DNA from: Salinirubellus salinus
Lineage (GTDB): Archaea; Halobacteriota; Halobacteria; Halobacteriales; Haloarculaceae
DNA: 64,000 nucleotides
NCBI RefSeq assembly: GCF_025231485.1
Contig: NZ_CP104003.1
Span: 1,426,001 to 1,490,000, forward strand
Direction of reading: 5' to 3'
Below, piece by piece: positions 20,025-23,740 of the stretch. Position 1 is the first letter of the stretch; every line of letters begins with the position of its first letter. The translations under genes were made by a program, and so were the position numbers. Below the pieces are notes generated by a model, which was not told where the DNA came from, did not search any database, and was given only the letters and a program-made list of their open reading frames with translations.

Positions 20025-20034
20025 CCTATATATG
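20025..20034 (+). promoter_or_regulatory. TATA element of the metal ABC operon
   Basis: cctatatatg, one of the clearest TATA elements in the window. Transcription start would fall near 20055, exactly at the left arm of the palindromic operator. Confidence 0.7.
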
Positions 20035-20054
20035 AGAGGAGCACCACGAAATAG

Positions 20055-20068
20055 TTAGACGAGTCTAA
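20055..20068. promoter_or_regulatory. Candidate DtxR/MntR-family operator
   Basis: ttagacgagtctaa is a perfect 6-2-6 inverted repeat (ttagac / gtctaa) located about 25 bp after the TATA box and 26 bp before ATG 20094. It resembles the TTAG...CTAA-type palindromes bound by archaeal SirR/IdeR regulators. A regulator of that family is the fourth gene of the same cluster, so metal-dependent repression is likely. Confidence 0.65.
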
Positions 20069-20093
20069 TCCGACTTCGAACATCTATCGAATC

Positions 20094-21158
20094 ATGGTAT
20101 CTAGAGAGCACACTCTGAGTCGACGCCGTGTGTTGCGAGCAGGTGGACTGGTGGGAATCGCGGGGCTGGCTGGCTGTACCAGCCTCGGCAGTACGGTGGG
20201 CGGGGGTGGCGACGACGGTGATGCAGACGACGACGGCCCCGTCGCCGTGGCCTCCTTCTTCAGTTTCTACGACTTCGCCCGGAAGGTGGCCGACGGTACC
20301 CCACTCACCGTGAAGAACCTCGTCCCGACGGGGTTGCACGGCCACGGCTGGGAGCCGAACTTGAGCATCACCCGCCAGATCGTGACCGCGGACGCGTTCG
20401 TCCACGTCGGCAAGGACTTCCAGCCGTGGGCGGACCGGGCCATCCAGACCCTGAAGGACGACGGGGTGGACACCGCACTCATCAACGTCCGCGAGGGTAT
20501 CGAACTGGTGCCGCTCGCCGCCTCGCTCGACCGGGACGAGGAGGGCGTCGGGGAGAACCGCGGGCGCGACCCACACTTCTGGCTGGACCCCCAGCGCGCG
20601 AAGCGGGCCGTCGACAACATCACCGAGGGGTTCGTCGACCTGCTCCCCGAGCACGAGGACGCCTTCCGGGAGAACGGCGAGACGTACAAGACGGACGTCC
20701 TCGACCGGGTCGACGCCGACTACGAGGCCATCTTCGACGCCGCGAGCCGCGACGTGGTCCAGCTGGCCGCGCACAACGCGTTCCAGTACGTCGGTGAGCG
20801 CTACGGCGTCCGGATGCGACCGCTCGTGGTCAACCTCGCCGCCAGCGGGGACGTGAATCCGAGCGACATCACCGAAGCGAAGCGGGTCATCGACGAGAAC
20901 GACATCCGGTACATCGGTGCGGGCGTGTTCGAGACGCTCAGGCCCGCCAAGCAGCTGGTGGCCGAGACGCCCGTCGAGGCGTACTTCCCGGTGACCCCCT
21001 ACGCCGGCGTCCGCGAGGACTGGGTCGAGGCCGGCTGGGGCTACGAGGAGATCGCCTACAACATCAACATGCCCACGTTCGAGGTCGTCCTCGGGAACGA
21101 GGCACCCGAGGACGCCGGCCCCGAGGGCTGGGCGGCCGAGTGGAGAAACTTCGAATGA
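20094..21158 (+). CDS. Metal (Zn/Mn) ABC transporter substrate-binding lipoprotein
   Basis: A 354-residue cluster A-I (ZnuA/MntC-type) binding protein. The N-terminus has a twin-arginine motif (SRRRVLRAGG) and a lipobox LAGC with C28, so it should be exported folded by Tat and lipid-anchored. A Gly/Asp-rich linker follows. Probable metal ligands lie in GLHGHGWEPN, DPHFWLDP and AAHNAFQYVG. It is the first gene of the importer cluster under the TATA box and operator at 20025-20068. Zinc or manganese cannot be told apart. Confidence 0.9.
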   Translation: MVSREHTLSRRRVLRAGGLVGIAGLAGCTSLGSTVGGGGDDGDADDDGPVAVASFFSFYDFARKVADGTPLTVKNLVPTGLHGHGWEPNLSITRQIVTADAFVHVGKDFQPWADRAIQTLKDDGVDTALINVREGIELVPLAASLDRDEEGVGENRGRDPHFWLDPQRAKRAVDNITEGFVDLLPEHEDAFRENGETYKTDVLDRVDADYEAIFDAASRDVVQLAAHNAFQYVGERYGVRMRPLVVNLAASGDVNPSDITEAKRVIDENDIRYIGAGVFETLRPAKQLVAETPVEAYFPVTPYAGVREDWVEAGWGYEEIAYNINMPTFEVVLGNEAPEDAGPEGWAAEWRNFE

Positions 21159-23008: not shown

Positions 23009-23740
23009 ATGGGCGACACCCGAAACCCTAACTCCGGCCGGCCGAAGAGGCGGACGAAGATGTTGAGCGCCGTCATGGAGGACTACATCAAGGCGATATA
23101 CGTCATCCAGAACGAGACGGGCGAGCGGGTCTCCACGTCGGCGCTCGCGGAGTACCTCGACGTGACCCCACCGACTGTCTCCTCGATGGTGAAGAAACTC
23201 GAGGAGCGCGGCCTCGTCGACCGCGAGGAGTACAAGGGCGTCACGCTCACCGAGGACGGCGAACTCGTCGCGCTGGAGATCCTCCGGCACCACCGGCTGC
23301 TGGAGTCGTTCCTCACCGAGCAACTGGACTACGACTGGGCGGACGTCCACGAGGAGGCCGACCGGCTCGAACACCACGTGAGCGACGAGCTCGCGCGGCG
23401 CATCGCGGAGGCGCTCGGCAACCCGGGCGTGGACCCGCACGGCGACCCCATCCCCGACGCGGACCTCCGACTGCCCGAGGGCGAGGAGACGACCCGTCTC
23501 GCGGAGATGGCGGTGGGCGACCGCGTCCTCGTCAAGCGCATCCGCCACCAGGGCGACGAGGAACTGCGCTACCTCGCGGACGCGGGCATCCGACCGGGCG
23601 TCGAACTGACCGTCGTGGACGTGGCCCCGTTCGGGATGATGACCGTGGAGACGCCGGCGGGCGAGCAGTCGCTCCCGGACGAGATCACCCGGCTCATTGA
23701 GATCACGAGCGCCGAGGTCGAACAGGACGCCTCGGCCTGA
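23009..23740 (+). CDS. Metal-dependent DtxR/MntR-family regulator (SirR-like)
   Basis: A 243-residue regulator: an N-terminal winged helix (EDYIKAIYVIQNETGERVSTSALAE, spanning about residues 24-48, then TPPTVSSMVKKLEERGLV), a helical metal-binding and dimerisation domain with ligands in ILRHHRLLESFL and EADRLEHHVSDELARRI, and a FeoA/SH3-like C-terminal domain (about 165-235). It begins two bases after the permease stop and most likely represses its own operon at the 20055-20068 palindrome when metal is bound. A second start at ATG 23060 is possible. Confidence 0.9.
   Translation: MGDTRNPNSGRPKRRTKMLSAVMEDYIKAIYVIQNETGERVSTSALAEYLDVTPPTVSSMVKKLEERGLVDREEYKGVTLTEDGELVALEILRHHRLLESFLTEQLDYDWADVHEEADRLEHHVSDELARRIAEALGNPGVDPHGDPIPDADLRLPEGEETTRLAEMAVGDRVLVKRIRHQGDEELRYLADAGIRPGVELTVVDVAPFGMMTVETPAGEQSLPDEITRLIEITSAEVEQDASA

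Follow-up and report, generated by a model that had tools for sequence, protein, structure and literature searches.

The genome of Salinirubellus salinus encodes a metal importer in a four-gene operon, and a palindrome lies just ahead of the first gene. This raises the question of which protein reads the palindrome and which metal controls the operon. The locus was analyzed within a 64,000-nt stretch of the genome, termed the window, and unprefixed positions refer to this stretch. For the reasons detailed below, the palindrome is very probably the operator of a haloarchaeal repressor of the SirR/MntR type, with Mn2+ as the most likely metal. The predicted repressor is made by the ORF at 23009-23740, which closes the importer operon. 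Three elements of this reading are inferred, namely that the repressor binds at 20055-20068, which metal it senses and how transcription is blocked.

The palindrome and the importer operon

The operon codes for an importer of the ZnuA/TroA type, with PF01297, PF00005 and PF00950 represented in one operon (Table 1). Its four genes are tightly packed or overlapping, and the regulator gene is the last. Reading by eye, the substrate-binding protein has a Tat-like signal, with a Cys after LAG.

Table 1. Coordinates of the importer operon and its promoter elements in the window.
Feature	Position	Strand	Basis
Operator (predicted box of the SirR/MntR type, at the predicted start of transcription)	20055..20068	+	exact match, conservation at orthologs
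TATA-like element TATATAT of the importer operon	20027..20033	+	read from sequence
Metal ABC importer substrate-binding lipoprotein, ZnuA/TroA family, PF01297	20094..21158	+	domain match
Metal ABC importer ATPase, PF00005	21155..21949	+	domain match; 4-base overlap with preceding gene
Metal ABC importer permease, PF00950	21942..23006	+	domain match
DtxR/MntR-type regulator with FeoA domain (SirR ortholog)	23009..23740	+	PF01325, PF02742, PF04023

A search of the window returned TTAGACGAGTCTAA (TTAGAC-GA-GTCTAA) at 20055-20068 as an exact match. This confirms the palindromic site which an earlier note on this DNA had placed upstream of the metal importer operon. The note had called it perfectly symmetric, which holds for the arms (6/6 pairs) but not for the centre, where GA is asymmetric. 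It had also located the operator over the start site, and this (as a prediction) fits the sequence: TATATAT at 20027-20033 is ahead of the box, the centres of the two elements being ~31 bp apart. With the ~26 bp that usually separate TATA and start in archaea, transcription would start at ~20056, where the box begins. The ATG of the importer, at 20094, is downstream of the box.

Perfect 6-2-6 palindromes are not rare in the 64 kb window (42 cases), but only that at 20055-20068 has at least 8 A/T among its 14 letters. For the 253-bp intergenic stretch, 0.08 such palindromes are expected from its own composition. When up to two mismatches are allowed, the window contains a single match, compared to 0.42 expected from shuffles.

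A genome scan, as proposed in the earlier note, yielded one exact box and one box with a single mismatch in the whole Salinirubellus salinus genome. At up to two mismatches, the box was found at 27 places, versus 22 for the reversed-motif control. The genome is thus not enriched at this level, and only the exact and the one-mismatch site stand out. Genome-wide enrichment at up to two mismatches was rejected as evidence for the box on account of these counts (27 versus 22). The regulon seems to comprise few targets here, namely the importer operon and one GDT1 gene (see below).

Conservation of the box across the order

The comparison set consists of 195 haloarchaeal genomes of the same order. 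The best 53 rows (at least 57% identity) were taken as importer orthologs, while 46 lower rows (at most 44%) were left out. The regulator set consists of 147 of 150 rows, among the matches listed. A box was called when at most two of the 12 arm letters were mismatched, and the reversed motif served as control. A scan of named genomes with the regulator alignment had few haloarchaea among the 80 loci kept and is excluded from the counts.

Exact sites occur in 82/195 genomes and the reversed pattern in 11/195. The box (up to two mismatches) is present upstream of 51 of the 53 importer orthologs (26 exact, 18 with one mismatch, 7 with two), and the remaining two importers have three mismatches. 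It is also present upstream of 106 of the 147 listed regulators (27 exact, 48 with one mismatch, 31 with two). The reversed control gave 0/53 and 0/147, respectively. When 179 alternative half-sites with the same letters were compared, they reached at most 4/53 importers, 10/147 listed regulators and 2/46 GDT1 genes (100 nt upstream), versus 51/53, 106/147 and 29/46 (100 nt upstream) for TTAGAC. Among 75 listed exact sites, 22 are before an importer, 17 before a regulator and 8 before a GDT1 gene, while 28 are beside none of these. The left arms at the importers read TTAG(A)(C/T), with G at position 5 in 0/51 sites.

Across the order, importer and regulator genes thus share one palindrome, which is the pattern of a haloarchaeal SirR operator. 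That other genomes keep the box ahead of GDT1 and of the regulator gene itself goes beyond the reading of the earlier note. In the clade of the window regulator, the palindrome is found at the importer and not at separate regulator genes. In total, 41 of the 147 listed regulators have no box (up to two mismatches) at their own gene, including all 10 of the window clade. As the 12-letter operator is near-invariant, SirR target genes can be read from haloarchaeal genomes.

There is a negligible probability that the box is a chance palindrome in an AT-rich promoter, not connected to a regulator. For such a coincidence it can be said that the box is a single 14-mer in a single genome, and that genome-wide enrichment at two mismatches is lacking. 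The box is, however, kept at orthologous promoters, where the control has no matches, and chance is refuted as far as the comparison reaches.

A wide gap separates the box from the downstream ATG in 42 of the 51 importer promoters, and in these an AT-rich TATA-like element follows ~35-40 bp from the box start. In these 42 promoters, a second half-site, TTAGA(T/C), follows 22 bp after the first and matches in 4.5/6 letters on average, while the next best half-site spacing scores 3.0/6. A distance of 22 bp corresponds to two helical turns and suggests that two dimers may bind side by side. In 9 of the 51 promoters, that of the window included, the box is near the ATG and downstream of the TATA-like element. 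At the listed regulator genes, the box comes right behind the TATA-like element, 15-23 nt ahead of the ATG, as judged from the sites and the average AT profile. This geometry would be that of autoregulation. The box positions suit repression, short of proof.

The regulator and its metal

According to the earlier note, the cluster ends with a regulator of the DtxR/MntR type. Such an ORF is indeed present at 23009-23740, and its family domains score above the cut-offs (PF01325, 71.4 bits, cut-off 26; PF02742, 103.8 bits, cut-off 27; PF04023 (FeoA), 55.7 bits, cut-off 23). The protein combines the N-terminal HTH and the metal-binding dimerisation domain of this family. It reaches 221.9 bits with the NCBIfam MntR model, which is under the cut-off of 350. 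Among solved sequences, 5zr4 is nearest (148.6 bits), followed by SloR, IdeR and MntR. The first ATG of the ORF adds 17 residues that are absent from most relatives in the alignment, and the conserved start is probably the ATG at 23060. An AlphaFold2 model has a mean pLDDT of 73.9, but the HTH part is mostly at 43-60, so that the model was used for no conclusion.

At E<=1e-30, no second SirR-type protein of the genome was found among the matches listed. In a tree of the listed regulators, the window regulator is placed in a clade of 10 (support 100/99). Three of these 10 regulators are encoded in importer operons (G000, which is Salinirubellus salinus, G055 and G078). All six genomes of this clade that have an importer also have an importer box at up to two mismatches (0 in G000 and G043, 1 in G055 and G067, 2 in G051 and G078). 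In G000, G051 and G067, no SirR-type protein outside the window clade was found among the matches listed, and the boxes of these genomes provide the cleanest hint that the window-type regulator itself may read TTAGAC. The predicted pairing of the operator with the regulator of the operon, already proposed in the earlier note, is strongly supported by the promoter comparison (51/53 importers, 106/147 listed regulators).

Position 42 in the recognition helix (numbering from the ATG at 23060) is Ser in 139/147 and Asp in 8/147 listed SirR-type proteins. A TTAGAC box at the own gene is found for 0/8 of the Asp42 regulators. This covariation was dropped and is not used here, because most relatives of the 8 keep the boxes at importer or GDT1 genes and all 8 fall inside one larger supported tree group.

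It is improbable, yet conceivable, that a different DtxR-family protein, and not the operon regulator, reads the box. The genome codes for two further clear DtxR-type proteins (C1:644535 and C1:3774601), besides several weaker HTH matches, and Idr-type sites are only one letter per arm apart from the box. The paralog at 3774601 is, however, preceded by its own TTAGGCAAGCCTAA site. Moreover, TTAGGC sites precede iron-type genes, while TTAGAC boxes track the SirR genes across the order.

The earlier note had distinguished the operator from the TTAGG-type sites of Idr proteins. This distinction holds, as there are six separate TTAGGC-NN-GCCTAA sites in the same genome. Two of them are just upstream of Peripla_BP_2 genes (iron/siderophore-type binding proteins), and one is before a DtxR-like gene. 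The window box, with its TTAGAC arms, does not have the TTAGGC arms of an Idr-type operator. TTAGAC (Mn-type) and TTAGGC (iron-type) would represent two DtxR-family circuits in one cell, which are one letter per arm apart. One Idr-type site, TTAGGCTAGCCTAA, is found at C1:1423274-1423287 (L007); it lies 2.7 kb outside the left end of the window and is flanked by an Fe-S biosynthesis gene and a DUF7522 gene. Another region, C1:3225473-3233062 (L014, L015, L339), has four TTAGGC-type sites in 7.6 kb, two of which are just before Peripla_BP_2 genes. It is likely an iron/siderophore uptake cluster.

With the operon regulator as the reader of the box, the following scheme is proposed. With ample metal (most likely Mn2+), the protein encoded by 23009-23740 would bind to TTAGAC-NN-GTCTAA as a metal-loaded dimer. 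The bound dimer would cover the predicted start site and thereby block transcription of the importer operon. As the regulator's own gene is within the blocked operon, it would be under negative feedback. When the metal is scarce, the repressor would release the operator and the importer would be made.

The earlier note had named Mn or Zn. Manganese is the likelier of the two, being favored by the sirR data from Halobacterium (see below), the acidic ligands of the regulator and the GDT1 targets, while a His of the importer aligns with zinc proteins. In the DtxR/MntR family, Cys marks iron-type sensors and an acidic residue Mn-type sensors. Among the 147 listed regulators, Asp8 is found in 147/147, and position 101 is Asp in 143 and Glu in 4, but never Cys.

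That the operator and the repressor are the same, but with zinc (or iron) as the metal that is sensed and imported, is possible, though we regard it as unlikely. The His of the binding protein (AAHNAF) is in the column that we take to be the third ligand, and there it aligns with the His of zinc proteins of the ZnuA/AdcA/YcdH type. The best NCBIfam match of this binding protein is to zinc AztC (84 bits, far below the cut-off of 350). The manganese MntC model gives 68 bits, and every metal-specific match is below its cut-off. TroA-like proteins with His take both metals. Against zinc, a His-rich loop is absent from the translation of the binding protein. Zinc is further disfavored by the Halobacterium sirR data, which concern Mn, by Asp8 and Asp/Glu101 together with the lack of Cys in the 147 listed regulators, and by the box being common to GDT1 genes, since characterized GDT1 members move Mn according to the available text of PMC7380456.

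GDT1 genes and comparison with known systems

The sole one-mismatch box of the genome (C1:919534-919547; L349:5535-5548) is 48-61 bp before a GDT1 (UPF0016) gene at C1:918818-919486, the product of which has an EFGDKT motif. This box supports the operator, because GDT1 genes are the same target class in other genomes. GDT1 orthologs occur in 120/195 genomes. The set that was used comprises 124/130 rows, leaving out second halves, fragments and one weak row. GDT1 is within 300 bp of a listed regulator on the same strand in 41/124 rows, and in 40 of these 41 it is just downstream. Among the 83 rows that do not adjoin a listed regulator, 46 promoters were scanned, and 36/46 have a box (up to two mismatches), compared to 0/46 for the control. 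According to the rows used, GDT1 is present in 44/53 genomes with the importer versus 75/142 others (Fisher p 1e-4, with relatedness ignored). In Salinirubellus salinus, the GDT1 gene sits among apparent ribosomal protein genes (translations read by eye).

The box is either between TATA and start, or GDT1 is encoded directly after sirR, behind the putatively autoregulated promoter. With GDT1 being under a repression-type operator, and often after sirR, shut-off by Mn is therefore predicted and not induction. The available text of PMC7380456 states that characterized bacterial GDT1 members export Mn and that V. cholerae mneA is Mn-induced. The same text lists four halobacterial UPF0016 members as being under Mn control and cites two papers for these and an Anabaena member, one of which is Leyn and Rodionov 2015.

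According to excerpts of the respective papers, deletion of sirR in Halobacterium NRC-1 raised the mRNA of zurA, zurM and ycdH with Mn present (PMC1779511), and sirR is termed a Mn(II)-dependent autorepressor in a review (PMC3600143). As the importer and sirR are both reportedly repressed by Mn-SirR, the GDT1 gene behind sirR is expected to be repressed, too. Hbt. salinarum is in the comparison set (G064, with 100% identity over 1050 bp to the importer gene on pNRC200). Its sirR (L289) has TTAGATGCATCTAA, with 2 mismatches, 21 nt before the ATG, and GDT1 starts 15 bp after sirR. In Halobacterium NRC-1, sirR is presumably VNG0536G. Judging from the gene numbers, VNG0535C would be the GDT1 gene beside it. 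VNG0535C is a “membrane protein of unknown function” that is grouped by co-expression with zurM, zurA and ycdH (PMC1779511, Table 1, as excerpted).

It is tempting to speculate, although we consider this rather doubtful, that the cation/proton antiporter GDT1, known as a Mn exporter from other organisms, belongs to the haloarchaeal SirR regulon and shares repression-type control with the importer. If GDT1 is repressed by Mn-SirR, Mn would turn it off, and it would function in Mn uptake, retention or delivery and not as an exporter induced by Mn; otherwise, SirR would have to activate from a position without known activation in archaea. With the operator at hand, the function of GDT1 in haloarchaea can be put to a direct test.

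At least four of the 28 listed exact sites that are off the importer, regulator and GDT1 lists are targets according to tblastn (L016, a regulator; L034, L037 and L038, importer paralogs). In two cases (L024:1501-1514 and L036:1501-1514), an exact box is before a gene of the PF11449 10TM (heavy-metal) exporter family. A stretch of L029 (box at 1501-1514) is similar to this exporter DNA (73% over 1184 bases). The PF11449 exporter gene is a possible further SirR target. In L039, L041, L042 and L043 (four genomes of one genus), the exact box is conserved, and no recognisable target gene was found nearby (around 1501-1514). These loci have a half-site ~21 bp beyond the box and a NUDIX gene close by.

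Repression by SirR/MntR is already known in haloarchaea, and the window operon would represent an ordinary case of an importer controlled by a metal repressor. For archaea, Leyn and Rodionov 2015 are said to have described palindromic motifs along with regulons of MntR, ZntR and FetR, including TroA-family importers, and the TTAGAC operator may already be in their tables. The operator sequence was not noticed in the parts of the literature that were searched, which did not include this likeliest source.

Bacterial MntR/TroR (B. subtilis, T. denticola) is a Mn-dependent repressor of a TroA-type importer and is encoded at the operon end in tro operons. The bacterial systems differ in having a bacterial promoter and other boxes; the window protein, in turn, carries FeoA at its C-terminus. 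Idr1/Idr2 of Halobacterium and Idr/TroR of Haloferax, named in the available text of PMC11349517, belong to the same protein family as the window regulator, with a palindrome of the same size. Idr-type sites have TTAGGC arms and, in the window genome, are at iron genes, in contrast to the TTAGAC arms of the window box.

In Halobacterium NRC-1, SirR and the importer encoded by zurA, zurM and ycdH are orthologous to the regulator and the importer of the window, and excerpts of the papers cited above report Mn-dependent repression and autorepression there. The Halobacterium importer promoter has only a box with 3 mismatches (~1 expected by chance in that 7.9 kb), followed by a TTAGAT half-site at a distance of 22 bp, an arrangement shared by its relatives. 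Thus, Halobacterium has a weak box, and its importer (on a plasmid) and its regulator are apart. In the window, the regulator gene closes the operon, its product belongs to a clade separate from that of Halobacterium SirR, and one exact box is found for all four operon genes.
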